This document shows positions 89-44,454 of a stretch of 45,035 nt of DNA, one piece after another. Every line of letters starts with the position of its first letter. Position 1 is the stretch's first letter. The stretch lies in the NCBI GenBank assembly GCA_021772535.1, contig JAJFLV010000085.1, positions 1 through 45,035 of the forward strand. The letters are read 5' to 3'. Under the pieces are notes generated by a model. The model saw only the letters and a list, made by a program, of their open reading frames with translations. It was not told the origin of the DNA and ran no database searches. Made by a program: the position numbers and the translations under genes. The stretch is from Opitutales bacterium (GTDB lineage: Bacteria > Verrucomicrobiota > Verrucomicrobiia > Opitutales > UBA2987).

Positions 89-192
89 ATTCCACTGTCT
101 TGATTAAGCGATTCCCTCCCACAATAATCTGCGAATAGTCAAGGATTGACGATTAATTTGGAAATTTGGTAAGGTTCTTTTTCGACATAATC

Positions 193-960
193 ATGAGTGA
201 TCATATTTTGGAACAATACAAACGAGATGGATTCGTTATAATTCGGAATCTATTGACAGAAAATGAGGTTCAAGCCGTTCAAGGTCTGCGTAAACGAATC
301 GACGCGGAAGCAGAAGATAATGGATTTCAAGATTTCATCAAAGGTAAAACACGTTACGAATTCGAGAAAATCGAATCGGAAGAATATGGTGTTCGTTCAA
401 CCTTGCGAGCGGTCAAGAATCCTTGGTGGAATGAGGAAGTTTTCAGGGAGGTTGCCGGCAGTGAAAAAATTTTAGACATCGTAGAAAAACTGATTGGCCC
501 TACGATCTTTTATCATTCCAGTAAATTGTTTTTCAAATCTGCTCGTGGCGGCAGGAGAAAACCCTGGCACCAGGATTGGGCCTATTGGGACACCATGAAC
601 CAGCGCCAGGTTACTGTTTGGATGGCCATCGATGAGGCGACTCGGGAAAACGGGTGTATTGAGGTCATCCCCGGTTCTCATAAAAATGGCTTGATCAAGC
701 ACCATCACGCTGAGGACTTTATGATTGATGAAGGTGTAATCGATCCTGATCTAATAGTCTATGCCATCATGGAACCGGGCGATGTATTGTTTTTCGATGT
801 TATGACCCTGCATGCTTCGGCGGCAAATCATTCGGATAAAGGCCGCCTTTGCTGTATTATCGATTACGATTCGGAACCCAAACCGGAAAATTCAAAACAT
901 GGGACCGATACTCCGCTACGGAATAAGGAAGGGGAGGTTGGCAGTCTGGCCTTTTCCTGA
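193..960 (+). CDS. phytanoyl-CoA dioxygenase (PhyH) family Fe(II)/2-oxoglutarate oxygenase
   Basis: A 255-residue PhyH-type non-haem iron dioxygenase, of usual length for bacterial members. These enzymes hydroxylate a small-molecule substrate using O2 and 2-oxoglutarate in the cytoplasm. Visible features are the opening FxxDGFVIIRNLL-type helix and strand, the HxD iron motif at H126/D128 (WHQDWAYWD), the distal histidine H207 (LHASAANHS) and R218 (GRLCC), which should hold the 2-oxoglutarate carboxylate. The ATG at 193 is preferred over an in-frame TTG at 166 because the family alignment starts at about residue 3. There is no signal peptide. It converges on the PdxA-type gene 24 bases away. 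The substrate cannot be told from sequence; PhyH genes are often found in sulfatase-rich clusters of Planctomycetota and Verrucomicrobiota. Confidence 0.88.
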   Translation: MSDHILEQYKRDGFVIIRNLLTENEVQAVQGLRKRIDAEAEDNGFQDFIKGKTRYEFEKIESEEYGVRSTLRAVKNPWWNEEVFREVAGSEKILDIVEKLIGPTIFYHSSKLFFKSARGGRRKPWHQDWAYWDTMNQRQVTVWMAIDEATRENGCIEVIPGSHKNGLIKHHHAEDFMIDEGVIDPDLIVYAIMEPGDVLFFDVMTLHASAANHSDKGRLCCIIDYDSEPKPENSKHGTDTPLRNKEGEVGSLAFS

Positions 961-984: not shown

Positions 985-1989
985 TTAAGGACGATTTTTA
1001 GCCATAACTGCAGCCAGTTTTATGGCTTGGATGAGACTTCTCGGGTCTGCCTTGCCCGTTCCGGCATTTTTAAAGTCCGTGCCGTGTTCGACTGAAGTGC
1101 GAATGATCGGCAAGCCGAGCGTTATGTTCACCCCGTTCCATATACCGAGCATCTTGGCGGCAACGTGTCCCTGGTCGTGATACATGGCCACGGCGCCGTC
1201 GAATTCACCTTGCAGGGTCCGAAAAAAAACTGTGTCTCCCGGATGAGGCCCGGAGGCTTTGATTCCTTTGCGGCAGGCTTCTTCGATTGCGGGTCTAATG
1301 TATTGAGATTCCTCCTGGCCGAAAAGTCCCCCTTCTCCAGCATGCGGGTTGAGACCGGCCACAGCGATGTGAGGTTCTTCAATGCCAAGATTTTTGATGC
1401 CTTCGTTGGCCAGCTTGATTACTTTTACAATCCTGTCAGGACGGACTCGCTCGATTGCTTCGCTTAAAGAGACATGGGTGCTGACGTGACAAACCCTTAA
1501 ATTACCAGCTGCCAGCATCATGGTCACATCGGGATTTCCGCACAGTTCGGCCAACAATCCCGTATGGCCGTCATAATGAAACCCGGCCTTGTTGAGGGCC
1601 TCCTTATTGATGGCCGAAGTAACGATACCGGCGATTTCTCCTTCCAAGGCCAACCCGGTAGCGAGTTTGATATATTCAAAAGCAGCCTTGGCCGCCATAA
1701 GGCTGATTTCCCCTCGAATTAATTTTTTCGTATCAACATTTCCGAGGTCCAGAACATTAACTGAATCATCAGTAAATTGAGTTTCTTCCAATTTATGGAT
1801 CTTTCTCACAATGCCCGGCAGACCGGTAATGTCATAAGCCTCCTGCATGGTTACGGCATCCCCAATGACTATGGGAAAGCAAGTATCCCTGATTTCGGGT
1901 TTGGCCAGAGCCATGGTTATCAATTCAGGGCCAGTGCCGGAGGCGTCGCCCATGGTAATGGCAATTAAAGGTTTAAACGGTTTATTCAT
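985..1989 (-). CDS. pdxA2: PdxA-family 4-hydroxythreonine-4-phosphate / 4-phospho-D-threonate dehydrogenase
   Basis: A 334-residue PdxA-family metal- and NAD-dependent dehydrogenase. Seen motifs: ITMGDASGTGPE near the N-terminus, H142 in YDGHTGLLAE, and the three metal histidines H172 (STHVSL), H216 (NPHAGEGG) and H271 (MYHDQGH). Their spacing matches the E. coli PdxA ligands H166/H211/H266. PdxA makes a vitamin B6 precursor, but the PdxA2 branch oxidises 4-phospho-D-threonate or 4-phospho-D-erythronate to dihydroxyacetone phosphate plus CO2 and is typically beside a DUF1537 kinase. Such a kinase lies immediately upstream here and overlaps this gene by 8 bases, so the catabolic role is favoured. 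It is the last gene of a minus-strand operon. There is no signal peptide. Confidence 0.87.
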   Translation of the reverse strand: MNKPFKPLIAITMGDASGTGPELITMALAKPEIRDTCFPIVIGDAVTMQEAYDITGLPGIVRKIHKLEETQFTDDSVNVLDLGNVDTKKLIRGEISLMAAKAAFEYIKLATGLALEGEIAGIVTSAINKEALNKAGFHYDGHTGLLAELCGNPDVTMMLAAGNLRVCHVSTHVSLSEAIERVRPDRIVKVIKLANEGIKNLGIEEPHIAVAGLNPHAGEGGLFGQEESQYIRPAIEEACRKGIKASGPHPGDTVFFRTLQGEFDGAVAMYHDQGHVAAKMLGIWNGVNITLGLPIIRTSVEHGTDFKNAGTGKADPRSLIQAIKLAAVMAKNRP

Positions 1990-3157
1990 GGATTGTGTCC
2001 ATTTCCATATTCCAGATTTCTTTTGGCCAGGGATAACTGCCGGGTTTGAGCGTCAGTAAAGTTTCATCAATTTCATCCGAGCGCAGCGAAACGACGCCTC
2101 GGGACCATTCATGGACAACCTTCAGAGATTTCCAATTATGCCCTCGAATGATTCGGGATGCAGTGGCCCCTCCTTCGATCCAAAGATGTTCGATTCTTTC
2201 GTGACGGAGGAGATATCGTGTTAATTCAAATATATGGTTCTCAATCCTCGAAGGTGCCAAGGGGTCCTTCGATCTGGGCATTCCAGTAGTCACAATAACC
2301 TGAGTATGCTCCTGCAGGGCCTCGGTTATTTGATTTTGCCATCGATTGATAAAGCCTCGGAAATCATCATTTGGCAGCAATAATTCTTCCGGCATTCGGC
2401 AAACGGGAATGCCTTCCGATTCGGCTTGTTTAACTCTTTCCCGCCCTGCTCTGGATGCCGTGCCTGAAATCAGAAGCGTTTTTAGAGGCATTTTTTTCAG
2501 CAGGGTTCTTTTGCGGGATTGGAAACCTTTCATTTCCAAAATTGCCGCCATGAAGTCCGATCCTCCGGCAGGCAGGGTATTTTTACTGAGTTTTTCCGCC
2601 CAGCAAATCAAGTCCTCGGTAGTGTTGGCGTCTCCAATTACAATTTTCCCCTCAGTAATGGCATCATCGACGGTTGCCGAAATGGCTTTTTTCAGATGGA
2701 GTGGGCCTAGCAACTTTACAACATCCGAGGTTCTCGCCGCAAGTTCAGGGTCTCCTGCAAAATCAGTTTCCTCCAGCAGATGATCATAAATATAATAACG
2801 GCCTTTGCGGATAGTGCGACCGAGGGAGGGATTGGCAGGAATCAAGATTGTGCGATTGAATTTCAAAAATCGCCCCAGATTCTCCAGCTCAATAGCAATA
2901 TTTCCGCGAAATACAGAATCCACTTTCTTAAAGATCCAGTCGGGTTCATTCTTTTGCAAATCATTAGCCGCCTCACTCACCCTTAGAGAGGCTGCTTCCG
3001 CCGAGCAAGAGCGAGAGTCGGTATCCCAAACCACCACATTTATTTTTGGATCCTGAGAAGTTGGCTGTAGGCAAATGACAGGTTCAAGCCCATATCGAAA
3101 AGCCAGACCTGCAATTTCAGCAGCCCCACTCAAATCGTCGGCAATAACACCAATCAT
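1982..3157 (-). CDS. DUF1537 four-carbon acid sugar kinase (DtnK/DenK/OtnK-like)
   Basis: A 391-residue kinase of the DUF1537 family, which phosphorylates four-carbon sugar acids such as D-threonate, D-erythronate or 3-oxo-tetronate with ATP. Seen: N-terminal MIGVIADDLSGAAEIAG, the DTDSRS strand at residues 45-50, FKKVDSVFRGN at 76-86 in the substrate-binding domain, and in the C-terminal nucleotide domain LLISGTASRAGRERV and the glycine-rich EGGATASRII. Length is normal or slightly short. The stop overlaps the start of the PdxA-type gene by 8 bases, indicating translational coupling. A PdxA partner points to D-threonate or D-erythronate kinase rather than the 3-oxo-tetronate kinase, which pairs with an aldolase (OtnC) instead. 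Substrate stereochemistry cannot be read from sequence. Confidence 0.86.
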   Translation of the reverse strand: MIGVIADDLSGAAEIAGLAFRYGLEPVICLQPTSQDPKINVVVWDTDSRSCSAEAASLRVSEAANDLQKNEPDWIFKKVDSVFRGNIAIELENLGRFLKFNRTILIPANPSLGRTIRKGRYYIYDHLLEETDFAGDPELAARTSDVVKLLGPLHLKKAISATVDDAITEGKIVIGDANTTEDLICWAEKLSKNTLPAGGSDFMAAILEMKGFQSRKRTLLKKMPLKTLLISGTASRAGRERVKQAESEGIPVCRMPEELLLPNDDFRGFINRWQNQITEALQEHTQVIVTTGMPRSKDPLAPSRIENHIFELTRYLLRHERIEHLWIEGGATASRIIRGHNWKSLKVVHEWSRGVVSLRSDEIDETLLTLKPGSYPWPKEIWNMEMDTIHE

Positions 3158-3215
3158 TTTAAAATTCCGAACCGGGGATCAGATTATGAAGGGGCGAAAT
3201 TATGAAACGGACAAT

Positions 3216-4139
3216 TCAGGTAAAGGCTTTGAATTCGCCCAAATTTTGAATATCACCAATTACAATTCGGGAATCTTCATCACTTAATGGGACAAGTGGA
3301 GGCAGTACCTTTTTTTCGCATAAACCAAGTGAATTCAAGGCTGTCTTCAAAGCCGCCAGAGATTGTGGTATGGCTCTTTCTTTTTGGAAAACCCCAACCA
3401 CCTGATTCATTTTAATTTGTGCTGCAGCCGCTCCTGTTTTGTCTCCAGACATCACACAATCTGTCAGTTGACGGCAAGTGAGGGGATCAAAATTAGCCGA
3501 ACTTGGAACAAGGCCGTCAGCGCCCTCATTAAGAACTTTTTCAGAAAGACCGGTACAGCCTATCAATATGGAAAAATCGTCTTTTCCCCCCAGGCGCGTT
3601 ATTAGTTCACTCAGGCGCTCGGCGTTGTTGGCGGAATCTTTAATTCCAATTATATTTGGATGCTGATGCAATCGCTCGACAATTTCCAATGGCACAGACA
3701 GATTTGTGGTCTGTGGAATGTTGTATATTAAAAGAGGACTTTCCACCCGGTCGGCCAATTCTTCATAATATTCAAATAAAACACTCTCCTCAATGGGGTA
3801 ATAGAAGGGCGGATGAGCGACCACTGCATCAACTCCGCTGGCGTAGGAATGTGCGGCCAATTCGAGCGAATGTTGGAGGCAGTTGTCTGCAATTCCAGAA
3901 TAAAGAAGCCCCTTTTCGCCGACCTCCCTTTTAGCCAGAGTGACCAATTGCTTACGCATGGAGAAAGGCATGGAGAGGGCCTCACCGGTCGTCCCTAAAA
4001 CAAAAATTCCATCACCTCCTCCCTTTAAAATATGTTCGATCAAACGGCATACGGCAGTTTCGTCGAGTTCTCTATTAGCAGTAAATGGCGTTACCATCGG
4101 AACTATGATACCGCTATGTTTTTTCTTTTGCACTGACAT
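3216..4139 (-). CDS. dihydrodipicolinate synthase (DapA/NanA superfamily) type aldolase
   Basis: A 307-residue class I aldolase/synthase of the DapA superfamily, which forms a Schiff base with pyruvate or a 2-keto acid. Seen: the entry strand GIIVPMVTPF, GTTGEALSM at about 49-57 (carboxylate-binding TTGE), catalytic Y139 in LIYNIPQTTN, and Schiff-base K167 in IIGIKDSANN. The ATG at 4139 is used; a longer frame from 4184 would run back into the dehydrogenase gene and add residues unlike the family. It follows that gene by 17 bases and precedes the kinase by 58 bases in the same operon. In this setting it more likely cleaves or dehydrates a 2-keto-3-deoxy sugar acid than makes lysine, but this is inference. 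Confidence 0.85.
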   Translation of the reverse strand: MSVQKKKHSGIIVPMVTPFTANRELDETAVCRLIEHILKGGGDGIFVLGTTGEALSMPFSMRKQLVTLAKREVGEKGLLYSGIADNCLQHSLELAAHSYASGVDAVVAHPPFYYPIEESVLFEYYEELADRVESPLLIYNIPQTTNLSVPLEIVERLHQHPNIIGIKDSANNAERLSELITRLGGKDDFSILIGCTGLSEKVLNEGADGLVPSSANFDPLTCRQLTDCVMSGDKTGAAAAQIKMNQVVGVFQKERAIPQSLAALKTALNSLGLCEKKVLPPLVPLSDEDSRIVIGDIQNLGEFKAFT

Positions 4140-4156
4140 TGTAATTAAGGTTACTA

Positions 4157-5302
4157 TTAATAGGCCGCTTTGTAAATGGCACAAGCAGCTTCTTCGGTCA
4201 TTTCACGGGGATTGTTTTTCAGGAGTCTCGTCACCGTCATGGCGGAGGCAGCCAGTTTTGGAATCGCTTCGGAAGGAACGCCTAAATCTCCAATATGCTG
4301 GGGTATGCCGCATTGCCGGGAGAGTTCTTTCATCCGATGCAAACCTCTGTTTGCAGTTTCTTCCGTGCTATGGCCTTTCTCGATACCCAAGGCTAACGCA
4401 ATATCGGCATACCGATCAATCGCTGATTCTATGTTATACTCAATTACATGCGGCAGAAGGACGGAATTGGACACTCCATGGGCAATTTTAAATTCTCCGC
4501 CCAAAGGGTAGGCGAGGGCATGAACGGCCGCTGTGTTAACCGGACCAAGACATAAACCACCATAAAGACTTCCCAATGAGAGCGCGGTGCGGGCCTCGAC
4601 ATCATGGCCATTATCAACTGCGCACTTGAGATTGGCGGCAATGAGTCGTACGCCCTCAATTGCATAAATATCAACTGTCGGATGCGCAAATTTATTGGCA
4701 TATGCCTCAATGCAGTGAACCATTGCATCGAGCCCGGTGGAGGCAGTCACGGCGGGAGGAACTGAAATCGTTAGCATGGGATCGACAAAAGCTCCGTCCG
4801 GCACAAGGAAAGGACTTACCGCTCCCTTTTTCAAACCTTCCTTTTCATCCAGGAGGATAGCGTTTGGAGATACTTCACTGCCAGTTCCGGAGGTGGTTGG
4901 AACACAGGCCAAATAGGTATTCCGGTTTTTTATTAATCCGATTCCGAAAACATCTTCAACTGATTGCCCGGAATCGAGCAAAGCGGCGACTAATTTTGCC
5001 ACGTCGAGCGGGCTGCCGCCACCCAAACCGACAACGGCATCGGGCATGGCAATTTGTGCCGCCTGCAAGGTTTCCCTGAACATGCCAACAGTCGGCTCGC
5101 TGTTGACCTCACTGAAAATAGTCGTTGTAGCGCCTCCTTTATTGAGGGCGCCGACCAGAGGATCGGCGAGTTGAACCACCGGATCAGCGGTAACTATAAA
5201 AACGGATTTCAGGTTTCTCGATAAAATATCATCCGCGCAATGTGTTATACATCCTTTACCGAAAACTAGCCTTCCGGGATTTAGAAAATTAATGATCCTC
5301 AT
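4157..5302 (-). CDS. iron-containing (group III) alcohol dehydrogenase
   Basis: A 381-residue Fe-dependent alcohol dehydrogenase, expected to interconvert an aldehyde or ketone and an alcohol with NAD(P)H in the cytoplasm. Seen: NAD-binding GGGSPLD at 94-100, the family PTTSGTGSE stretch near 135-143, and metal ligands D192, H196 (LDAMVHCIEAY), H261 (VHALAYPLGG) and H275 (KIAHGVSNS). The ATG at 5302 (MRIINFLNPG) matches the family start; a TTG at 5317 would add five residues. It is the first gene of the four-gene operon, with a 254-base AT-rich divergent spacer upstream. It may remove a short hydroxyaldehyde such as glycolaldehyde or lactaldehyde released by the neighbouring aldolase; this is inferred from position only. 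Confidence 0.88.
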   Translation of the reverse strand: MRIINFLNPGRLVFGKGCITHCADDILSRNLKSVFIVTADPVVQLADPLVGALNKGGATTTIFSEVNSEPTVGMFRETLQAAQIAMPDAVVGLGGGSPLDVAKLVAALLDSGQSVEDVFGIGLIKNRNTYLACVPTTSGTGSEVSPNAILLDEKEGLKKGAVSPFLVPDGAFVDPMLTISVPPAVTASTGLDAMVHCIEAYANKFAHPTVDIYAIEGVRLIAANLKCAVDNGHDVEARTALSLGSLYGGLCLGPVNTAAVHALAYPLGGEFKIAHGVSNSVLLPHVIEYNIESAIDRYADIALALGIEKGHSTEETANRGLHRMKELSRQCGIPQHIGDLGVPSEAIPKLAASAMTVTRLLKNNPREMTEEAACAIYKAAY

Positions 5303-18519: not shown

Positions 18520-18630
18520 TTCCATCCCTATTAAACTTGCGCTCATACAATCTCGGCAGCATATATTTGTCGAGCCCTTAACTGCCAGAATCGTACGCAT
18601 TATTTAACTGCAACCATAAGGACGGCATTG

Positions 18631-21501
18631 ATGAATTCCACTCTCTATCAACAACTTATATCGGTGGCCTTTTTAGTCATCTCTTTAACCGGTTTCGGCG
18701 AGCTACCCAAAGAAGAAACTAATTCCGTCGGCATGAAAATGATCCGGCTGGAAGGGGGCACTTTTCAGATGGGCAGCAAAATGTCCGGCCGGATTGATCG
18801 GTTTTCATTTCCCTTTGTCAAGAACGATGATTTGGTGAATGTGCCGCCCGACTGGGATGAATTCCCCCGCCATAGAGTTACCATCAGCGGCCCGTTTTAC
18901 ATCTCGCAAACCGAGGTTACGGTAGAACAATTCAAGAAATTCAGGTCCGATTACGTGGGTTCAAAAACTGGTCAACCTTATGCCACAGGGGTAAGTTGGC
19001 ATAATGCTGCGGCTTATTGCCAATGGTTGAGTGAAAAAGAGGGAAAGCCCTACCGTTTGCCGACCGAGGCGGAATGGGAGTACGTCTGCCGTGCGGGAAC
19101 GAATACGCCATTTTCTTCCGGCGACCAGCCACCAGAATCCGATTCGCCCAATCCATGGGGATTGCTCAATATGCACTCCGGCGCACTGGAATGGTGTAAT
19201 GATTGGCATGGCGCTTATCCGCACGATGACCAGGTCGATCCAACAGGTCCTGCTGACGGATTTGCCCGCGTGGTGAGGGGAGGTCCCCTTGACCGAAAGG
19301 ATAGAATGCTTTTCCGGTTGAGTTCCTTTTACCAGCGTTCCGCCAATCGAGCCGGGATTGCCCCGGGATTTCAACAGGTTCAATCCTGGGATGATGAGAA
19401 GGAGGAAATCGAGAATTTACTGCAACCTGGGGACGGTGATTTTTCTACTGGATTGGTAGGAATTTTTTTCAACAGTTCCTATTTAACGCGCCCCTCGGAT
19501 CTCTGGCCGGTTGAATTAGTAAATTCTGACGATATCGAATGGCCGGCGAGTAATGATTGGTCGGCCGCCTGGAGGGGTTACCTTGAAACTCCCAGAACCG
19601 GTCCCATTGAATTTTCGGCTGAGGTAGACGATGGTCTAAGGCTCGAAATCAACGGCAAGGTTATTATCGACGCTTGGGAGGATGGCACGAAACTTTCAGG
19701 AACATTTGCGGCTGAAAAAGGGAGGAAGTATCCTGTTAAAATCTCCTATTTTACGAATGGCGGCGATTCCTTTCTGCGTTTGTTCTGGAAGCTTTCGGAA
19801 CAAGAGAAAACAATCATTCCTGCGCGGGCCTTCTGGCATGTTTCAGCCGATGAACGTATTGTTGGAAAAGAAGTTATGAAGAGCAGCATGCCACGAGAAA
19901 ATGCGATTGGTTTTCGTGTCGTGCAGGCTCCCCCGCCGCCCATCCAACCTTCTCAAAACAAGGAGGCATTTGTTATGCAAGGCGTTCGTCAAAATGTTAA
20001 GCAACTCAAAAGTGGGCCACCCGCCGATAAGCCTTATTTTCGCAGGCGAATCATGCTGCCGATCCCATTGGAAAACAGTTCGAGGTCAGCTATCGATGCT
20101 GCCGGTTTTCACTCCTCTTTTCGCGGCCATAACCACAGTCCCGCACTGGAAGTATGCTCAAATGGGGACCTTTTGCTGGTTATTTACACTTCCTACAACG
20201 AGTATGAGCCTGGTGTTTCACTGATGGCAGCTCGTCTGCGTTTCGGACAGGAAGAGTGGGATATGCCATCCCCCCTGATAGATTTCCCCGATGCCAATGA
20301 CCACGCGCCTCTTCTCTGGAACGATGCGGGCAAGCTCCACCTTTTTTGGGGCAGTCCTCAACTCGACGGAGGATTTCCCTTTCAATGGACGACATCGACC
20401 GACAATGGCGCTTCCTTCGCGGAGGTGAGATTTCCTAAATTTGAAGGCCCCGTTTTATCCCATTCCCGCCAACCGATAAATTCTGCTTTTCGAGGAGTTG
20501 ACGGCACAATCTATGTGGCCAGCGATGGCGAGGGGGGCGCTTCCGTTCTCTGGGCCAGCAAGGACAATGGGGAGACTTGGTACGATACAGGGGGAAGAAG
20601 CGGTGGACGCCATACGACCTATGTGCAACTGAAAAACGGCGACATTTTGGGAATGGGGGGCAAGAATACTAATATCGACGGCTTTATGCCAAAATCGGTT
20701 TCCAGTGATGGCGGGAAAACATGGAAGATCAGTAAAACACCGTTTGCTTCGTTAGCTTCCAACCAACGGCCAACTCTAATACGGTTGCAGAGCGGGCGAT
20801 TGTTTTTTGCCGGGGATTTTCAGAAGAGGGGAGGGGCCCAACCCGAGGGAATTACCCAAAAAGGAGCCTTTGCCGCACTTTCCCATGACGAAGGAGAAAC
20901 CTGGAGGATAAAGAAGATACCGGGAACTTTGCCTCATGAAGTCGATGAACCCTGGGGGGGAACTCTTGGATATTCCGTGGCTCGTCAGGCGCCTAATGGC
21001 ATCATTCATTTAATAACAACGATGAACCATCCCAGTCTGCATTTTTCACTCAATGAGGCCTGGATTTTGGCGGAAAAGGAAGATCGAACGGAGAATGAAA
21101 TAACAAGTTCTGAATCGGGTAAAATTTCAAAGATGGAAAAATTTGTGGAAAAATATTCCAATGCGAATTCGAGGATTGAAGGCGGAGGCGGTTTTTTTGA
21201 GGATGGCCGATACTTATTGGATGGTCCCCAGGTCTGGAATTATGCCAACGGCAAAAAAAAGTGGGAAGCCACATTCCAAAGCGGACGAAAAGTCGGCAAG
21301 GAGACTTATTGGAACATTTATGGAAAAAAAATCTGGCAATGGGAGCATGATCCCGAAGGAGTTACCAAATGGACCCAATGGTGGCCCGATGGCAGGAAGA
21401 AAGCAGAATCGACCTGGAAAAATCGAAGATGCGTCGGTATGGCCAGAACCTGGGATTATGATGGAAATCTAGTCAGCGAAGTCGAGTTTTCCGATGGGTG
21501 A
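18631..21501 (+). CDS. multidomain secreted protein: FGE/SUMF1-like with nested PA14, sialidase-like, YwqK/MORN-like
   Basis: A 956-residue fusion, first of a tandem pair. Order: signal peptide (about 1-24), SUMF1/FGE-like domain (about 32-250; MIRLEGGTFQMGS, RLPTEAEWEYVCRAG, RVVRGGPLDRKDR), PA14-like glycan-binding domain (about 275-410; WSAAWRGYLETP, LRLEINGKVIIDAW), the last FGE strand RENAIGFRVVQ (about 422-432), a sialidase-like propeller (about 495-815) with Asp boxes STDNGASF, SKDNGETW, SSDGGKTW and SHDEGETW, and a YwqK/MORN-like tail (about 845-956). Thus PA14 interrupts the FGE fold. The C-terminal cysteine pair used by true FGE is absent, so sulfatase activation is unlikely. AAGGA at 18618 decides the ATG at 18631. 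It is divergent from the ABC binding protein and overlaps its paralogue by 8 bases. Confidence 0.85.
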   Translation: MNSTLYQQLISVAFLVISLTGFGELPKEETNSVGMKMIRLEGGTFQMGSKMSGRIDRFSFPFVKNDDLVNVPPDWDEFPRHRVTISGPFYISQTEVTVEQFKKFRSDYVGSKTGQPYATGVSWHNAAAYCQWLSEKEGKPYRLPTEAEWEYVCRAGTNTPFSSGDQPPESDSPNPWGLLNMHSGALEWCNDWHGAYPHDDQVDPTGPADGFARVVRGGPLDRKDRMLFRLSSFYQRSANRAGIAPGFQQVQSWDDEKEEIENLLQPGDGDFSTGLVGIFFNSSYLTRPSDLWPVELVNSDDIEWPASNDWSAAWRGYLETPRTGPIEFSAEVDDGLRLEINGKVIIDAWEDGTKLSGTFAAEKGRKYPVKISYFTNGGDSFLRLFWKLSEQEKTIIPARAFWHVSADERIVGKEVMKSSMPRENAIGFRVVQAPPPPIQPSQNKEAFVMQGVRQNVKQLKSGPPADKPYFRRRIMLPIPLENSSRSAIDAAGFHSSFRGHNHSPALEVCSNGDLLLVIYTSYNEYEPGVSLMAARLRFGQEEWDMPSPLIDFPDANDHAPLLWNDAGKLHLFWGSPQLDGGFPFQWTTSTDNGASFAEVRFPKFEGPVLSHSRQPINSAFRGVDGTIYVASDGEGGASVLWASKDNGETWYDTGGRSGGRHTTYVQLKNGDILGMGGKNTNIDGFMPKSVSSDGGKTWKISKTPFASLASNQRPTLIRLQSGRLFFAGDFQKRGGAQPEGITQKGAFAALSHDEGETWRIKKIPGTLPHEVDEPWGGTLGYSVARQAPNGIIHLITTMNHPSLHFSLNEAWILAEKEDRTENEITSSESGKISKMEKFVEKYSNANSRIEGGGGFFEDGRYLLDGPQVWNYANGKKKWEATFQSGRKVGKETYWNIYGKKIWQWEHDPEGVTKWTQWWPDGRKKAESTWKNRRCVGMARTWDYDGNLVSEVEFSDG

Positions 21502-24382
21502 TCTGCGGGCATTTTATCAAAAACTTGGCGTGGCGGCATTGCTAGGCTTCTGTTTGGCCGGTTACGCTGATTCCCCGAACATGCGCACCAATTCCGTGGG
21601 TATGAAAATGATCCGACTAGAGGCGGGTTCTTTCCAGATGGGCGCGAAAATGTCGGGTCAAATCGACCGGTTTTCGTTTCCTTTTATCAGGTCCGACGAC
21701 TTGGTTGATGTGCCGCCTGACTGGGACGAATTTCCCCGCCACAAAGTAACCATTAGCAAACCGTTTTACATTTCGCGAACTGAAGTCACAGAAGAGCAAT
21801 ACCGGAAATTCGAGCCAGATTTCAGGGGCTCGAAAACTTATGAGCCTTACGCAACGGGTGTAAGCTGGCATGAGGCCATGGCTTATTGCCGGTGGTTGAG
21901 CGAAAAAGAGGGCAAGCCCTATCGTCTGCCGACCGAGGCGGAGTGGGAGTATGCCTGCCGGGCGGGAACCGATACGTTGTATTCTTCCGGCGATCAGCCG
22001 CCCGAGCCGAAAACGCCAAGTCCCTGGGATTTGCTCAATATGCACTCTGGCACCCTCGAGTGGTGTCTCGACTGGCATGGGCTTTATCCGCACGACGACC
22101 AGGTCGATCCGGTAGGATCAGCTGAGGGGTTTGCCCGGGTTGTCCGGGGCGGTCCTCTGGACCGTAAAGACCGAATGCTGTTCCGGTTAAGTTCTTTTTA
22201 TCAACGCTCTGCAAATCGGGCCGGGATAGCGCCTGGATTTCGGCAGATTTCCTCAGAGGACGAAGAAAATGGGGCGTCTGAAGAATATTCTCAACTTGGG
22301 GAAGGTGATTTTTATCATGGATTGGTGGGGATTTTATATAACAACCCCGATTTAACGCTTCTCTCGGGCCTTTGGTCTGCAAAAGTTATAAATTCCGATC
22401 AAATGAATTGGCCTGCACTCAATGATTGGTCGGTTGTCTGGAGAGGTTTTATCGAAGCTCCCATAACGGGTTCAATTGATTTTTCTGTCGAGGTGAACAA
22501 GGATCTGCTGCTGGAAATCGACGGCCAGATCGTCATTGACCACTGGCTAAAGGGTACGGATATCAAGGGTGCTATGGAATTGGAAAAAGGCAGGAAATAT
22601 CCATTAAAACTGTCTTTTTCCACAGACACCGCCAACTCCTTTCTACGCTTGCTCTGGAGTTACCCGGGGCATGAGAAAGCAGTAATTCCTGCATCCGCGT
22701 TTTTGCATACCAGACCGGATGAGCGTTTAGCTAAGAAAAAAGTTTTGAATGCGAAAAGACCGAGGGAAAACCCGGTTGGTTTTCGGGTCGTGCAGGCTTC
22801 CATGCCAACTACTCCGCCTCTTCGTTATGAAGCGCAGTTTACCATGCAGGGAGTTCGTCAAAATGTCCCTGAAGTGAAGAAAGGACCTCCGGCTGATAAA
22901 TCCTATTTTCGCAAACGGGAAATGCTTCCTATTCCTCTGGAAAACAGTTCGAGAGAGATTATCGATGCTGCCGGATTTCATCCTTCTTTTCGCGGTCATA
23001 ACCATAGTCCGGCTCTGGAGGTGTGTTCGAACGGAGACCTTATGCTGATTATTTTTACTTCCTACGATGAGTATGAACCCGGTATGTCCCTGATGGCAGC
23101 ACGTTTGAGATTTGGACAGGAAGAGTGGGATATGCCTTCTCCCCTGATGGATTTTCCCGATGTCAGCGATGTTTCTCCTCTACTCTGGAACGATGCGGGA
23201 AAACTCAATTTGTTCTGGGGCAGCCCGCAACTTGATGGGGGATTTCCTTTTCAATGGACAACTTCTTACGACAGCGGCGCTTCTTTCAACGAGGTTAAGT
23301 TCCCTGTTTTTCCCGACCCGGTCGGGGGGCACTCCCGCCAGCCGATAAATTCAGCGTTTCGAGGAGTTGACGGCACAATCTATGTTGCCAGCGACGGCGA
23401 AGGGGGGACCTCTGTTCTCTGGGCCAGCCGTGATGAGGGTCAGACTTGGCACGACACCGGGGGAAGAACCAGAGGACGCCATACCACCTTCGTTCAACTG
23501 AAAAATGGCGACATTTTGGGGATGGGTGGCAAGAATACCAATATTGACGGCTTCATGCCAAAATCGATATCCAGCGATGGAGGAAAAACATGGAAGTTCA
23601 GTAAAACGCCTTTTCCTGCGTTAGCCTCCAATCAGCGACCAACCCTTATTCGGTTGCAGAGCGGGCACCTTTTCTTTGCCGGAGATTTTCAAAAAAGGAG
23701 AGGGGCTCAACCTAAGGGAATTACCCAAAAAGGCGCTTTTACTGCTCTCTCCGAGGACGAGGGGAACACCTGGAGGATCAAGAAGATACCGGGAACCTTG
23801 CCTCATGAAGTGGATGAGCCCTGGGGTGGGACTCTCGGTTATTCCGTGGCTCGTCAGGCTCCTAATGGCATCATTCATTTAATTACGACGATGAACCATC
23901 CCAGCCTGCATTTTGCCTTCAATGAAACCTGGATTTTATCAGAAAAGGAAGATCAAACGGAGAGTAAAATAACAAGTTCTGAACCAGGTATAATTTTAAA
24001 GATGAAAAAATTTGTAGAAAAACATTCCAACGGAAACGCGAGGATTGAAGGCGGAGGTGGTCGTTTTGAGGATGGCCGATACTTATTGGAGGGTCCCCAG
24101 TTTTGGAACTATGCCAATGGCGATAAAAAGTGGGAAGCGACATTCCGAAGCGGTCAAAAGGTCGCCAAGGAAACCTATTGGAATATCGAGGGAAAGAAAA
24201 TCTGGCAATGGGAGCATGATGCCAAAGGAATTTCCAACTGGACGCAATGGTGGCCCAATGGCCGGAAAAAAGCGGAATCTACCTGGAAAAACCGGAAGTG
24301 CGAGGGTGTGGCCCGAACCTGGGATTACCAAGGAAACCCGATAAGCGAAGTCGAATTTTCCGAGGGCAAACCGATCCTTTAA
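21494..24382 (+). CDS. tandem paralogue of the FGE-like/PA14/sialidase-like/YwqK-like protein
   Basis: A 962-residue protein with the same order as its upstream neighbour and clearly homologous along its whole length, also at nucleotide level. Signal peptide MGDLRAFYQKLGVAALLGFC with cleavage near AGYA. The FGE-like core has MIRLEAGSFQMGA, RLPTEAEWEYACRAG and RVVRGGPLDRKDR without catalytic cysteines; PA14-like segment WSVVWRGFIEAP; FGE tail RENPVGFRVVQ; Asp boxes SRDEGQTW, SSDGGKTW and SEDEGNTW; YwqK-like tail with WTQWWPNGRKKAESTWKN. The start lies inside the last codons of the first copy (shared bases 21494-21501), so it is translated by coupling. The most different part between the copies is the PA14 region, hinting at different ligands. 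The exact activity is unknown. Confidence 0.85.
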   Translation: MGDLRAFYQKLGVAALLGFCLAGYADSPNMRTNSVGMKMIRLEAGSFQMGAKMSGQIDRFSFPFIRSDDLVDVPPDWDEFPRHKVTISKPFYISRTEVTEEQYRKFEPDFRGSKTYEPYATGVSWHEAMAYCRWLSEKEGKPYRLPTEAEWEYACRAGTDTLYSSGDQPPEPKTPSPWDLLNMHSGTLEWCLDWHGLYPHDDQVDPVGSAEGFARVVRGGPLDRKDRMLFRLSSFYQRSANRAGIAPGFRQISSEDEENGASEEYSQLGEGDFYHGLVGILYNNPDLTLLSGLWSAKVINSDQMNWPALNDWSVVWRGFIEAPITGSIDFSVEVNKDLLLEIDGQIVIDHWLKGTDIKGAMELEKGRKYPLKLSFSTDTANSFLRLLWSYPGHEKAVIPASAFLHTRPDERLAKKKVLNAKRPRENPVGFRVVQASMPTTPPLRYEAQFTMQGVRQNVPEVKKGPPADKSYFRKREMLPIPLENSSREIIDAAGFHPSFRGHNHSPALEVCSNGDLMLIIFTSYDEYEPGMSLMAARLRFGQEEWDMPSPLMDFPDVSDVSPLLWNDAGKLNLFWGSPQLDGGFPFQWTTSYDSGASFNEVKFPVFPDPVGGHSRQPINSAFRGVDGTIYVASDGEGGTSVLWASRDEGQTWHDTGGRTRGRHTTFVQLKNGDILGMGGKNTNIDGFMPKSISSDGGKTWKFSKTPFPALASNQRPTLIRLQSGHLFFAGDFQKRRGAQPKGITQKGAFTALSEDEGNTWRIKKIPGTLPHEVDEPWGGTLGYSVARQAPNGIIHLITTMNHPSLHFAFNETWILSEKEDQTESKITSSEPGIILKMKKFVEKHSNGNARIEGGGGRFEDGRYLLEGPQFWNYANGDKKWEATFRSGQKVAKETYWNIEGKKIWQWEHDAKGISNWTQWWPNGRKKAESTWKNRKCEGVARTWDYQGNPISEVEFSEGKPIL

Positions 24383-34336: not shown

Positions 34337-34491
34337 TTGCTGGTTTTTAGCTCCATTATACAAATACTTGGAAAGCCTTTCGCAGGATAGATCTTTAGTT
34401 TCCGATAGCAACGCGATTTTCTGATTTCTTTGCTTCAGTTTATTTCAGAATCGCTTTGCAAGGCATCGAATAACTTATATCTTTGGAATTG

Positions 34492-36954
34492 ATGACAACA
34501 AGTATTCTCCCCTTTAGGAAAAACAGGTGGTTTCTGTTATTCTCAATTTCTCTTTTGGGCGTCCAGTTGGTGTCTGCGAAAACCGAGGTTATTGCACTCT
34601 GGTTGTTTGACGAACAAAAAGGCATCTATCCCAGTTGTGTTCTGAGCGATTCCTCGCAAACCGATTTTCCTCTTGTTCTGGGACCGGGCGGTCAGATTGT
34701 CTCCGGAAAATTCGGCAATGCCCTGGAGTCGATCGATGGGCCAAAAGTAAATTACCCGGAGGGGAACGCCCATTTCGGGCTTACCCCGGTTACTGTTCCA
34801 GAAGGACATACGGTGGAACCGATGACATGGAAGAATGCCAATTTTTCAGCTTTAGCCACCAGTGGGGAGAATCATTTGCGAAAAGAAGTTGGTTTCCTCA
34901 ATGCGAGCAAATCGCGATTGAATCTAGGGGATTTCGACTGGACGGTGGAATTTTGGTATTTGCCCAGTCGAAAATCCAATGAAGAAGGGGCAGTCTTTGA
35001 AATCGGGCAGGGCCCACGAGGGGAGAATGAACATGTTACTCGACTGGTCCTGAACAAGAATCAGACCGGTTTTATATTATTGAACGAGCCTGGCGGATTA
35101 ATGCTTAAAATTCCCTCGGATAAATCAGCCCTTTTGCCGGGAACAGATAACTGGCGGCACCTGGCTTTCGTTTATGATTCGGAGGAAAATCAAATACGTC
35201 ATTTTGTGGATGGTGTGGAGCAATTTTTACCAAGCAAGGGTACAATACTACCTCTAGGAATTGGCGAGGAATCATATTTCAGCATCGGACGGGATGGATT
35301 GTGGGAACGCGCGATTCCAGGCAGGATCGACGAATTGAGAATTTCTGCGGGCAGGGTTTACCAGGGAAATTTTACGCCACCCTCAAGTTTATCACCAACC
35401 GACAAGAAAAAAAAACCTGAAATATCATTGCTGGCCGGTCCACCGCTTCTTTTCCCGGAAAATGATTCCATTCAAAAAATTCTCCCCATAGGTGGAAGAA
35501 AGCACTTGTTTATCGACGATGCCATCGTCGAAGAAATGGAAAACATTCATTTCCAATTGAATCCTCCCCGGTTGGCCGAACGGGTGATCGACAACATCAA
35601 AGGTTCCTTTCGCAAGCATTTAACGGTAATTGAGGACGACGAAGGTTTGATCAGAATTTATAATGGTGTTAAAGATGACCAGTTAGGGGTGCGAACTTCC
35701 AAGGACGGAATTCATTGGCAAGTGCCCGATATGAGCCGCAGTGAGGACACAGATTATCTTAATATCGTAATCCCTGAATCGGTTGCGGTAGGCAGTCTTT
35801 TTTTGGATCCCAATGCATCGTCGGAATCTCGTTGGAAGTATTTCAGCGGTTATCATGACCGTGGAATTTTCATGTATTCCTCTGCCGATGGATGGTCTTT
35901 TCGTCGAAATAAAACAGCCGCACTTCCCTTCAGGTCGGGCTCTCAATCTTTTATTTATTATGATGATCAAAGGCAGCGTTATGTCGCTTTTCATCGGACC
36001 GATTATCCTCGAACTATTGCTGGCGCCACGCAACGGGAGTTTGTCCGCACCGAAACGATCGATATTAACGCACCCTGGCCTTTTAAACCTGCCACTCAGT
36101 CTCACTTTGAGGAGGTAGCAAAAAACAAACGTATGCATAAACTTAATCCCTGGTATCTTGATAACGGGCCGCTTACTCCCGGCGGTTTTGGTTTTGAATA
36201 TCCAACAGGTTTTGCTCCGGATGATTCCGTAGATCCGGTGGGAACAGATTTCTATAGCCCGAAAGCAGTTAAATACGCATGGGCTCCCGATACTTACCTG
36301 GCATTTCCGGTAGTCTATTTCCACTACGAAAGAGACGGTCCGGCGACCCGGCAGATTCTAGGTGAGGAAGATCGTGGGCGCGGTTCGGGGCCGATCGAAA
36401 CCCAGCTTGCGGTCAGCCGGGACGGTTTGAATTGGAAACGTTTTCCACGGCCAGCCTACATCGGCGTCGGGAATCATCTGGGCCGAGATATTCACCAGGC
36501 TTATATTGCCAACGGATTAATTCGACGAGGAAATGAGATCTGGCAGTATTACTATGGAGAAGATATTTATCATTCGACCTTTCAAAAAGGCTCCAAGGGT
36601 AGCGCGGTTTATCGGGTCGTTCAGCGTTTCGATGGATTCGTTTCGGCCGATTCACCTTATGACAAAGTCGCTAATTTGAGGACCAAGCCACTTATTTTTA
36701 GGGGCAACCGTCTGGTGCTAAACATCGACACCGAAGCCACCGGTTATGCTCAAGTCGGTCTCCTCGATATGGAGGGAAATTCCATATCGGGATATTCGGT
36801 TGACGATTGCATCTATATCAACGGCGATTTTATGGAAACCGAAGTGGAATGGATGGGCCGGGGAACAGACTTGTCCGAACTTCAGGGAAAACCCGTTAGA
36901 ATCGAATTCCTCATGCGGGGAAGCAAGCTCTACTCGATGCAGTTCAGGGATTAA
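34492..36954 (+). CDS. secreted LamG-propeller protein, copy 1
   Basis: An 820-residue exported protein. A signal peptide (WFLLFSISLLGVQLVSA) precedes a LamG/concanavalin-like sandwich (about 33-300; ALWLFDEQKGIYPSC, FDWTVEFWYLPSRK, WRHLAFVYDSEENQI, RIDELRISAGRVYQG). Then comes a propeller module starting at HLFIDDAIVEEMENIHFQ, with Asp-box-like TSKDGIHWQVPD, SADGWSFRR and VSRDGLNWKRFP, and a final sandwich (RLVLNIDTEATGYAQVGLL...GSKLYSMQF). The ATG at 34492 lies three codons after a TTG. The same layout recurs at 41965-44418 (most of the length alignable by eye), and the propeller-plus-tail occurs alone at 7062. It probably binds and may cleave a glycan; no catalytic residues are assignable. 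Confidence 0.8.
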   Translation: MTTSILPFRKNRWFLLFSISLLGVQLVSAKTEVIALWLFDEQKGIYPSCVLSDSSQTDFPLVLGPGGQIVSGKFGNALESIDGPKVNYPEGNAHFGLTPVTVPEGHTVEPMTWKNANFSALATSGENHLRKEVGFLNASKSRLNLGDFDWTVEFWYLPSRKSNEEGAVFEIGQGPRGENEHVTRLVLNKNQTGFILLNEPGGLMLKIPSDKSALLPGTDNWRHLAFVYDSEENQIRHFVDGVEQFLPSKGTILPLGIGEESYFSIGRDGLWERAIPGRIDELRISAGRVYQGNFTPPSSLSPTDKKKKPEISLLAGPPLLFPENDSIQKILPIGGRKHLFIDDAIVEEMENIHFQLNPPRLAERVIDNIKGSFRKHLTVIEDDEGLIRIYNGVKDDQLGVRTSKDGIHWQVPDMSRSEDTDYLNIVIPESVAVGSLFLDPNASSESRWKYFSGYHDRGIFMYSSADGWSFRRNKTAALPFRSGSQSFIYYDDQRQRYVAFHRTDYPRTIAGATQREFVRTETIDINAPWPFKPATQSHFEEVAKNKRMHKLNPWYLDNGPLTPGGFGFEYPTGFAPDDSVDPVGTDFYSPKAVKYAWAPDTYLAFPVVYFHYERDGPATRQILGEEDRGRGSGPIETQLAVSRDGLNWKRFPRPAYIGVGNHLGRDIHQAYIANGLIRRGNEIWQYYYGEDIYHSTFQKGSKGSAVYRVVQRFDGFVSADSPYDKVANLRTKPLIFRGNRLVLNIDTEATGYAQVGLLDMEGNSISGYSVDDCIYINGDFMETEVEWMGRGTDLSELQGKPVRIEFLMRGSKLYSMQFRD

Positions 36955-41964: not shown

Positions 41965-44418
41965 TTACCTCGAAACAAACTGCATGGCGTAAAGCTTTGA
42001 TCCACGCATCCGGAATACTATCTGTACCGTTTTTCCCTTAAGAGCCGACAGGTCGAATCCTTTGTCGATCCATTCCACTTCAGTTTCGATAAAATCTCCA
42101 TTGATGTAGATGGAATCATCAACTGAGTAACCGGGGATGGGATTTCCATCTTCATCGAGAAATCCGACCTGAGTATAACCAGCGGCCTCGGTATCTATAT
42201 TCAAGACAAGCCGATTCCCTTCGAAGGTCAAGGGCCGGGTAGTCAGGTAGGCCTCCTTGTCATAGGGAGAGTCGGCGGAAACAAAACCGTCCAGTCGCTG
42301 CACCAAACGATAAACGGCGCTCTCTTCGTGGCCCTTGCCGTAGGTTGAGTGGTAAACTGCTTCACCATAATAATATTGCCAGATTTCATCGCCCCGCCGG
42401 ATCATTCCATGGGCGGTGTAGGCCTGGTGAATATCGCGTCCCTCGTGTAAACCGATACCGACATAAGCCGGTCGTGAGTGGCGTTCCCAGTTCACCCCAT
42501 CGCGACTGACCGAGAGCTGTGTCTCGACCGGACCGGAACCGCGAGCGCGGGCTGGGTCCATGAGAATTTGTCTGGTTTCGGGTCCCTCCAATTCGTAGTG
42601 AAAATAAACTATGGGGAAGGCCAGATAAGTATCCGGCGCCCAGGGGTATTTTGTTGCTTTGGTGATATATATATCGACACCCGCTGGATCTACGCCGTCG
42701 TTGGGTGCGAATGAGTGTGGTAATTCCAGGCCGATACCTCCCAAGGTCAGTGGGCCGTTATCCAGATACCAGGGCATGGGGTCACGAATGCGGCCTGTTT
42801 TTTTGGCAACCGCCTTGGTTTCCTCCAGAGATACCCGTTTAAAGGGCCAAGGTGTGTAAAGATCCCTGGTTTCGGTGATAACCGATTCCCTCTGGGTTGC
42901 CCCGGCTATGGTTTTATTAATTCCAGTGCGGTGATACCCGACATAAAGCTGGCGTTGTTCGTCATAAAAAGTGCAGGACTGAGTGCCGGACCGAAATGGT
43001 AATACAGCCGTGCGATTTCTCCGCCAGGAATAACCGTCGGGAGACTCATAAACAAAAATACCCCGGCGATGATAACCACTAATATATTTCCAGCGGGATT
43101 CGGGTGGGCCGTTGGGGTCGATGAAGGGATTGCCCAACCCCCCCACCATTTCGTGAAGAACAATATTTCCATGGCCTTTGTACTCACCTTTACCCATATC
43201 AGGCATTGTCCAGTTAATGCCATCACGGGAAGTTCGAACGGCCAGGAAATCATCCGATACTGAATTGTAGATGCGCAATAATCCATCCTCGTCTTCAACT
43301 ACCGTAAGGTGCTTGCGGAAAGGCCCTTTGATGTTGTCGATCACTCGTTCCGCCAATCGTGGAGGATTTACCTGGAAATGAATATTTTCCATTTTCTCGA
43401 CGATGGCATCATCGATAAACAAGTGTTTCCTTCCTTTTAAAGGAAGGACTTTTTGAATGGATTTGTCTTGTGAAAAAAGAAGCGGAGGACCGGCTAGCAA
43501 TGATATTTTCCGGCCGCTCTTCTGGACAATTGGGGATAAACTGGTGGGCGGCGAAAAATCTCCCTGGTAAACTCGTCCGGTGGAAAACCGAAGCTCATCC
43601 AACCGGCCCGGCAAAGGATTTCCCCAAGTTCCGTTGCGTCCAACAGAAAAGTAATCTTCGTCGCCAAAATCAAGGGCTTGAACAGCCGCTTTTTCCGGCA
43701 GGGTCTGTAAAGCTCCACCCACGTAATGACGAAGCTGCTTTTCCTCCGCATCGTAAACAAAGGCGAGGTGGTGCCACTTCTTTGAACCCGATTGGAGAGC
43801 TGACTTGTCGGAAGGAATAGTTAGGTTAAGGCCGCCAGCTGAATTTAAAAGATCAAATTCCCTGAGATTTTTATTCAACACCAGGCGGGTTACTTTATCG
43901 TTTTCACCCCGGGGCCCTTGCCCGATTTCAAAGACAACGCCATCTTCTTCGGGTTTCCGGGTAGTCAGATACCAGAATTCCACCGTCCAGTCGAATGCCC
44001 CAAGGTTGAGCCGAGTGCGGGTCGCATTGGGAAAACCCGCCTGTTTGCGCAAATGGTTTTCGGCGCTTGTCATCAAGCCACAGAAATTGGCGTTCATCCA
44101 GGACATCGGCTGGACCGTGCGGCTTTCTGGAATTTCCAGTTGCTTGAGGCCAAACCATTCTTCTCCCTCCGGGTATTCAATTTTCGGTTGGGGAATCGGT
44201 TCCAGAGCATTGCCAAACTTTCCCTCCACAACTTGACCTCCCGGCCCTACCACCATTGGGTAATCGTTGTCCGACTCATCGCTGAGGACACAGCTTGGAT
44301 AGATACCAACTTGCTCATCGAACAACCAAAGAGCGACGGTGCGATTTTCGCCGCCCTTTAATACGTTCACCCAAATCAGGACGAGGAGAGCGAATGTTAA
44401 AATTCTTATGGTTTTCAT
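41965..44418 (-). CDS. secreted LamG-propeller protein, copy 2 (inverted relative to copy 1)
   Basis: An 817-residue exported protein closely related to the one at 34492 in every domain: signal peptide (IRILTFALLVLIWVNVL), LamG sandwich (ALWLFDEQVGIYPSC, FDWTVEFWYLTTRK, WHHLAFVYDAEEKQL), propeller beginning HLFIDDAIVEKMENIHFQ with Asp-box-like TSRDGINWTMPD and VSRDGVNWERHS, and the terminal sandwich (RLVLNIDTEAAGYTQVGFL...GSKLYAMQF). The ATG at 44418 is chosen because the signal peptide follows at once; a frame from 44451 would add 11 residues. It lies 36 bases after the partial sulfatase gene in the same direction, so the two are probably one operon. The substrate is likely similar to that of copy 1. 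Confidence 0.8.
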   Translation of the reverse strand: MKTIRILTFALLVLIWVNVLKGGENRTVALWLFDEQVGIYPSCVLSDESDNDYPMVVGPGGQVVEGKFGNALEPIPQPKIEYPEGEEWFGLKQLEIPESRTVQPMSWMNANFCGLMTSAENHLRKQAGFPNATRTRLNLGAFDWTVEFWYLTTRKPEEDGVVFEIGQGPRGENDKVTRLVLNKNLREFDLLNSAGGLNLTIPSDKSALQSGSKKWHHLAFVYDAEEKQLRHYVGGALQTLPEKAAVQALDFGDEDYFSVGRNGTWGNPLPGRLDELRFSTGRVYQGDFSPPTSLSPIVQKSGRKISLLAGPPLLFSQDKSIQKVLPLKGRKHLFIDDAIVEKMENIHFQVNPPRLAERVIDNIKGPFRKHLTVVEDEDGLLRIYNSVSDDFLAVRTSRDGINWTMPDMGKGEYKGHGNIVLHEMVGGLGNPFIDPNGPPESRWKYISGYHRRGIFVYESPDGYSWRRNRTAVLPFRSGTQSCTFYDEQRQLYVGYHRTGINKTIAGATQRESVITETRDLYTPWPFKRVSLEETKAVAKKTGRIRDPMPWYLDNGPLTLGGIGLELPHSFAPNDGVDPAGVDIYITKATKYPWAPDTYLAFPIVYFHYELEGPETRQILMDPARARGSGPVETQLSVSRDGVNWERHSRPAYVGIGLHEGRDIHQAYTAHGMIRRGDEIWQYYYGEAVYHSTYGKGHEESAVYRLVQRLDGFVSADSPYDKEAYLTTRPLTFEGNRLVLNIDTEAAGYTQVGFLDEDGNPIPGYSVDDSIYINGDFIETEVEWIDKGFDLSALKGKTVQIVFRMRGSKLYAMQFVSR

Positions 44419-44454
44419 TTCGTGTCTTAGATAAGTCAAATTGAGGAGCATCGC

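Follow-up and report, generated by a model that had tools for sequence, protein, structure and literature searches.

What are an alcohol dehydrogenase and an aldolase doing beside two enzymes of four-carbon sugar-acid breakdown? The question is raised by a stretch of Opitutales bacterium DNA (the window, meaning the whole 45,035 nucleotides analysed; contig C256 of a 3.9-Mb source genome that is 90% complete), in which four genes lie on the minus strand in the order ADH-ALD-KIN-PDXA. ADH (5302..4157; ATG start), the first gene, encodes an Fe-dependent alcohol dehydrogenase (Pfam ADH_Fe_C, 185.8 bits; Fe-ADH, 139.8 bits). It is followed by ALD (4139..3216; ATG start), a DapA/NAL-family class I aldolase (DHDPS, 188.7 bits); KIN (3157..1982), a DUF1537 four-carbon acid-sugar kinase (SBD_N, PF07005, 121.5 bits; NBD_C, PF17042, 43.5 bits; both above cut-off); and PDXA (1989..985), a PdxA2-type dehydrogenase (PdxA, 340.9 bits). 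The four genes probably form an intracellular catabolic pathway for 3-deoxy-D-lyxo-2-heptulosarate (Dha).

An earlier sequence-only reading had described four adjacent genes, two of their junctions being gaps of 17 and 58 bases and the third, KIN/PDXA, an overlap of 8 bases; recounting from the ATG starts gave exactly these values, and Pfam confirmed the four families. The strand and the leading position of ADH were absent from that reading. It had also proposed a four-carbon-acid route, of which two elements are retained as predictions: conversion of a tetronate to dihydroxyacetone phosphate (DHAP) by KIN and PDXA, and creation of the four-carbon acid by ALD and ADH. The origin of the acid, left open there, now appears to be Dha, as suggested by linkage to glycoside hydrolase family 143 (GH143).

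A predicted route from Dha to pyruvate and DHAP

From the gene order, protein families, conservation and genomic linkage, all observed directly, we infer the substrate, its transport and every catalytic step of the following route. GH143, encoded elsewhere in the source genome, would free Dha from rhamnogalacturonan II (RG-II) or scaly green algae, and a sodium-solute symporter (SSS) would import it. ALD, the proposed Dha aldolase, would then split Dha by a retro-aldol reaction into pyruvate, carbons 1-3 of Dha being the pyruvate unit, and the C4 aldehyde acid D-threuronate, which ADH, as a threuronate reductase, would reduce with NAD(P)H to D-threonate. KIN, as a D-threonate 4-kinase, would phosphorylate C4 to give D-threonate 4-phosphate; PDXA, as a D-threonate 4-phosphate dehydrogenase/decarboxylase, would oxidize C3, the product decarboxylating to DHAP and CO2 with return of NADH. 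The net reaction would be Dha + ATP -> pyruvate + DHAP + CO2 + ADP, and the route would be redox-neutral if ADH and PDXA share a cofactor, since ADH consumes and PDXA regenerates its reduced form. Fischer bookkeeping, with configurations taken from general knowledge, leads from Dha to D-threonate, and reproduced the check case in which cleavage of Kdo, the other keto-deoxy acid of RG-II, yields D-arabinose. One DUF1537 kinase, DtnK, acts on D-threonate (PMC10971088), and the substrate named for PDB entry 6e85, a PdxA-family enzyme, is D-threonate 4-phosphate.

Residues and family profiles of the four proteins

The active-site residues expected of ADH, ALD and PDXA are preserved in the cassette members aligned. 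In ALD, the GTTGE motif (G49-E53), Y139 and K167 are invariant among 17 cassette ALDs, placing them among the class I aldolases of the DHDPS/NAL type; we take K167 to be the Schiff-base lysine of these aldolases, and the lysine, tyrosine and GTTGE motif to have their usual catalytic roles. At the position of the DHDPS arginine, which presumably binds the semialdehyde carboxylate in DapA, ALD carries Thr144, whereas the arginine is present in another DapA of the source genome (L095, contig C147), which is the better DHDPS match (323 versus 188 bits). ALD also falls under the TIGR00674 (DapA) cut-off (165.9 versus 206.15 bits). These features contradict the alternative that the sequence-only reading had named as its refutation, that ALD is the DapA of the lysine pathway; with no DHDPS arginine in ALD and a separate canonical DapA on C147, that identity is very unlikely. 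By its sequence ALD looks like a pyruvate-type aldolase, not the lysine enzyme. The nearest solved relative of the cassette ALDs, PDB 4xky (233 bits, next 171), was deposited as dihydrodipicolinate synthase; it has threonine at the DHDPS arginine position in the printed alignment, and its name may be wrong.

For ADH, D192, H196, H261 and H275 are invariant in 15 aligned cassette ADHs and are presumably the metal ligands of the Group III Fe-ADH type. Likewise, H172, H216 and H271 of PDXA are invariant among 15 aligned sequences, at what we take to be the positions of the metal-binding histidine triad of the PdxA family. The PDXA profile (A4) scored 392-400 bits against the PdxA2-type structures 2hi1, 4jqp and 6e85 and 265 against 1ps6/1ps7, which we take to be E. 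coli PdxA; PDXA is thus closer to PdxA2 than to biosynthetic PdxA. Among NCBIfam models, only PDXA of the four proteins passed a cut-off (TIGR00557 pdxA, 347.5 versus 290.35 bits). Across the source genome, searches turned up a further PdxA on C101, along with eight members of the DHDPS family, three Fe-ADHs and a single DUF1537 protein.

Conservation of the cassette across genomes

A survey of genomes for the same four genes, proposed in the sequence-only reading, bore out their association and revealed a second arrangement. Named-genome contigs were scanned with kinase alignment A1, and the best 80 of 456 confirmed loci were kept, their phyla being read from record titles. All four genes lie side by side on the same strand at 58 of these 80 loci, which exceeds chance; the order is ADH-ALD-PDXA-KIN at 52 of them, and that of the window, with KIN before PDXA, at six. 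These 58 loci comprise 33 from Bacteroidota and 19 from Verrucomicrobiota, plus one each from KSB1, Melioribacter, Ignavibacteriales, Balneolales, Planctomycetota and another bacterium. As for the other 22, eight end at a contig edge, and L025, L033 and L034 have a gene inserted ahead of KIN; PDXA-KIN alone was seen at 12 of the 80, some truncated by contig ends. The four genes are also kept in two genomes of the same genus (57-84% identity) and in two more of the order. Pairwise distances of the four proteins correlate across 53 full loci (Pearson 0.71-0.90); this figure takes no account of common descent and does not serve as proof here.

Adjoining PDXA in the window is a gene for a PhyH-family dioxygenase (166-960, plus strand), which likewise stands beside PDXA in a same-genus genome (G002; L174).

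Linkage of the cassette to GH143

The substrate is read as Dha because GH143 is linked to the cassette. A neighbour from locus L021 that belongs to PF24067 ('BT_1020-like N-terminal beta propeller') scored 438 bits against residues 21-611 of PDB 5mqr, the only solved structure found to be related to the GH143-type protein linked to the cassette; the rest of the 1108-residue protein is missing from this neighbour. We take 5mqr to be BT_1020 of B. thetaiotaomicron (GH143/GH142), presumably the founding enzyme of GH143, with its propeller half as the Dha hydrolase, which fits the Pfam name. According to PMC6811678, GH143 acts on Dha, freeing it from RG-II, and the family was set up for a bi-modular protein.

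The linkage was clearest when 288 Verrucomicrobiota genomes, drawn evenly at completeness >=85, were searched with PF24067, ADH alignment A2 and KIN alignment A1. A cassette was called where an ADH match above 400 bits shared a contig with KIN, and PF24067 matches of at least 149 bits were regarded as strong, both lines being chosen after the scores were known; the split match of G015 (87 and 40 bits) and that of G337 (66 bits) counted as not strong. The list of ADH matches extends far below the 400-bit line and splits cleanly, with 12 genomes at 471-640 bits and the rest at 320 or less; KIN lies beside ADH on the same contig in 11 of these 12, the exception being G015 (the A1 and A2 searches, here and in the Bacteroidota sample below, considered no more than 4-6 candidates in any one genome, and misses are possible). 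Strong PF24067 matches were found in 12 of the 288 genomes, namely all 11 cassette genomes and one (G199) of the 277 others (Fisher P value 5e-19, uncorrected for ancestry); because 8 of the 11 are from one family, the effective sample is smaller than the P value suggests. PF24067, KIN and ADH share one contig and strand within 4.9-6.2 kb in 10 of the 11. In each of the nine of these regions that were read, ADH, ALD, KIN, PDXA and GH143 form a single run, for example SSS-ADH-ALD-KIN-PDXA-GH143 in G133, G130 and G136, and GH143-ADH-ALD-PDXA-KIN in G206.

In G015, the cassette-type ADH (C15:36571-37707; L172) sits beside PDXA with a symporter near, without ALD or KIN, and the genome has the divergent PF24067 match given above; this arrangement is possibly a decayed or altered pathway.

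Strong PF24067 matches also marked all five four-gene genomes among 52 relatives and one (G009) of the other 47; none was found in G003, which has KIN-PDXA, or in G038, which has KIN. The samples overlap partly, G000 and G023 being in both the 288 and the 52, and G336 and G364 of the cross-phylum set described next having the same places of match as G001 and G183. Across phyla, 50 genomes were taken from 50 of the 80 loci, picked for intact flanks and spread, with strong defined as E < 1e-50 and L025 counted as four-gene. Here strong PF24067 matches occurred in 28 of 42 cassette genomes (39 four-gene and 3 planctomycete genomes without ADH) versus one of the eight control genomes, which have KIN alone or KIN-PDXA (P value 0.007); two further controls gave weak matches of 33-35 bits. 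Within the flanks themselves, GH143 is present at 13 of the 80 loci, and GH143 or a BNR_2-type gene at 31, with neither in the flanks of the eight controls. One of the 14 named control genomes, that of Bacteroides ihuae, contains PF24067 but gave no match to PF07005.

Outside Verrucomicrobiota the GH143 link is weaker. Of 392 genomes from the phylum of the Spirosoma locus (Bacteroidota), 22 have PF24067, five have the cassette ADH and three have both. Since GH143 in this sample mostly occurs without the cassette, those bacteria would leave Dha unused or use something else. Twenty GH143 regions of the same sample (L140, L141 and L143-L160) contain GH78 in 18 cases and the cassette in none; L143 belongs to G407, whose cassette lies elsewhere.

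Evidence weighing against Dha as the substrate

A number of observations count against the Dha pathway as proposed. The best NCBIfam model for KIN is indeed the D-threonate kinase DtnK (NF047819), with 118.7 bits against a cut-off of 450, and PDXA misses the D-threonate 4-phosphate dehydrogenase equivalog NF002891 (308.1 versus 583 bits). ADH is absent from three planctomycete loci of the 80. The source genome, the eleventh of the cassette Verrucomicrobiota, carries its two GH143 genes (56-59% identical to the L021 protein; PF24067, 336-339 bits) on other contigs (C146 and C21). GH143 occurs without the cassette in control genome L072 and in G199, and with KIN-PDXA in G009, where no ADH or ALD is on that 8-kb contig. 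Conversely, 13 of the 42 cross-phylum cassette genomes have no PF24067 match at 1e-5 and one more has only a weak one; among the 13 are nine Verrucomicrobiota (by titles) and one other bacterium, and six of these ten carry a BNR2b gene, of the sialidase-like type described below, in the locus. In the Bacteroidota sample, 19 of the 22 GH143 genomes lack the cassette ADH and two of the five cassette-ADH genomes lack PF24067; of the three with both, one is the chosen centre of the sample (G352) and another (G407) has the genes about 650 kb apart. If the centre is left out, PF24067 occurs in 2 of 4 cassette-ADH genomes versus 19 of 387 others (P value 0.015). Another RG-II sugar is also conceivable, since GH143 marks RG-II degraders and RhaT and fucose-isomerase-like neighbours occur, at three loci each.

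An unlikely alternative is an arrangement of two separate pairs, in which KIN and PDXA handle D-threonate or D-erythronate, while an independent keto-deoxy-sugar-acid aldolase works with a lactaldehyde/glycolaldehyde reductase (KDF/KDR/KDG type), the pairs being co-regulated because both serve the breakdown of plant or algal polysaccharides. KIN-PDXA does stand without ALD and ADH at the 12 loci already mentioned (some at contig ends) and in G003 and G009; ADH scores 274.7 bits on the lactaldehyde reductase FucO (TIGR02638), though below the cut-off of 523.15; and GH78 and GH2 are common neighbours, joined by the rhamnose transporter RhaT, a protein resembling fucose isomerase and a zinc-type sugar dehydrogenase. 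The last three, however, are found at only three of the 80 loci each, against 58 for the four genes together, and a Pfam scan of representatives of 20 of the neighbour clusters found no sugar-acid dehydratase. Two independent pairs would also have to account for contiguity of the four genes in two different orders and for GH143 as operon partner in 10 of the 11 Verrucomicrobiota cassette genomes.

Breakdown of a different ulosonic acid, for example Kdo, or of Kdo together with Dha, is somewhat less probable still. The cassette genomes without GH143, the BNR_2 sialidase-like genes at 24 of the 80 loci as potential Kdo releasers and the GH78 genes at 15, whose products would strip rhamnose from Kdo, all speak for it; yet the D-arabinose formed from Kdo would need no DUF1537 kinase and no PdxA2 enzyme, and GH143 is assigned to Dha. 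Very little weight falls on a vitamin B6 side route, with the DUF1537 protein supplying 4-phospho-hydroxythreonine to a PdxA-type enzyme. Some DUF1537 members phosphorylate 4-hydroxythreonine, as stated in PMC7954711, and PDXA does pass the TIGR00557 cut-off; but this leaves the linkage of ALD, ADH, GH143 and the symporter unexplained. PDXA need not supply vitamin B6, because the second PdxA on C101 (311 aa) is available, and its own profile is PdxA2-like. A role in B6 biosynthesis was set aside as unlikely on these two grounds.

Relation to known catabolic systems

The pathway proposed for Dha combines parts of several known systems. DUF1537 kinases and PdxA2 (DtnK/DenK) reportedly catabolise D-threonate and D-erythronate (Zhang et al., 2016), and the cassette resembles that system in its kinase and dehydrogenase families, their adjacency and the predicted end in DHAP and CO2. 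It differs by the conserved ALD and ADH and by the GH143 linkage, and D-threonate would be an internal intermediate derived from a C7 sugar acid. Sialic acid catabolism employs a NanA/NAL aldolase, an SSS-type symporter and a sialidase; common to both are a sialidase-type hydrolase, a symporter and a DapA/NAL aldolase that frees (in the cassette, would free) pyruvate from a keto-deoxy acid, whereas the non-pyruvate half in the cassette would be a C4 aldehyde acid processed via ADH, DUF1537 and PdxA2, and not an amino sugar. With DapA, ALD shares the family, the Schiff-base lysine, GTTGE and the tyrosine motif, and it departs from DapA in the arginine and score noted above, with another DapA in the genome. 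The cassette-linked GH143-type protein is related to BT_1020 of RG-II degradation, the one neighbour compared (L021) spanning only the propeller residues of that protein.

The enzyme families are known, and their combination and substrate appear to be new. No Dha catabolic pathway and no account of the four-gene cluster was found in the literature as far as it was accessible, and a mention in the subscription-only founding papers of GH143 and DUF1537 is still possible. The broader proposal stands at about even odds: that the Dha pathway is complete, undescribed and present in at least Verrucomicrobiota, Bacteroidota, Planctomycetota and KSB1, that the cassette-linked BNR_2 proteins of sialidase fold, two of which are in the window, are further Dha- or Kdo-releasing hydrolases replacing GH143 in some lineages, and that the source organism may eat Dha-bearing algal scales or plant RG-II. 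A 2025 review (PMC12168206) states that RG-II is the only place in plants where Dha and Kdo are known to occur, and that identification of Dha is hampered because no standard is available; Dha is also found in prasinophyte scales and the Tetraselmis theca (PMC10762512). Because Dha occurs in both RG-II and these algal coverings, land-plant and algal sources are both possible. This seven-carbon acid is among the rarest plant sugars; its release by GH143 is known, and the accessible literature yielded no published account of its later fate in bacteria. If the assignment to Dha is true, the gap that follows the freeing of Dha during RG-II breakdown would be filled, four generally named proteins would gain a function, it would be clear how the D-threonate module can be supplied by the cell's own metabolism, and a set of enzymes with which to measure Dha would be at hand.

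Neighbouring genes and other genes of the window

The genes that recur around the cassette in the 80 loci encode GH78, GH2, DUF3826, BNR_2 sialidase-like and PF24067 proteins. An SSS symporter matched in 56 of the 80 loci by tblastn count and is no more than 8 kb from KIN in 49 of the 60 loci with the cassette; the symporter neighbour cluster (52 loci) is loosely merged and contains some other proteins. DUF3826 proteins (15 loci) recur beside the cassette with GH78 and BNR_2 genes, as at L078 90-803. A smaller cluster of esterases of the sialic-acid-specific acetylesterase type was seen at four loci.

The window itself holds two tandem sialidase-like genes on the plus strand (18628-24382). The first (18628..21501) encodes an FGE-sulfatase domain, PA14 and a BNR_2 sialidase-like propeller, a possible ulosonate hydrolase that is 39% identical over 600 aa to L028:1528-3324; the second (21494..24382) is another copy of the same protein, 40% identical over 571 aa to the same region. 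Both have a C-terminal repeat region, and their homologues (BNR2b) are encoded near the cassette in other genomes. The AlphaFold2 model of the stretch 20050-21498 is of moderate quality (pLDDT 76.8), and its best Foldseek matches were bacterial sialidases (E ~1e-13; TM ~0.5 by query length), which suggests a sialidase fold for the BNR2b region.

A second pair encodes proteins with LamG and an uncharacterised C-terminal region, one on the plus strand (34483..36954; 50% identity over 843 aa to L074:10802-13345) and a further copy on the minus strand (41965..44451; 51% over 845 aa). Homologues lie near the cassette in Ignavibacteriales, KSB1 and Balneolales loci, and the LamG proteins are possibly a new glycoside hydrolase family. 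The AlphaFold2 model of the LamG protein had a mean pLDDT of 37.6, and a search of solved structures with a LamG protein returned nothing usable. By hhalign, neither the sialidase-like (A6) nor the LamG (A7) profile showed homology to GH143 (A5; probability 3.5 and 3.2), and those sialidase-like and LamG proteins that were run against NCBIfam were assigned to no family.

The window also carries sulfatases, as read from the translated open reading frames, a tagaturonate epimerase and a GHL10-like protein (27.7 bits, slightly below cut-off); elsewhere in the source genome, another GHL10 gene follows downstream of one of the GH143 genes. This wider content of the window fits a role of the cassette in Dha breakdown.

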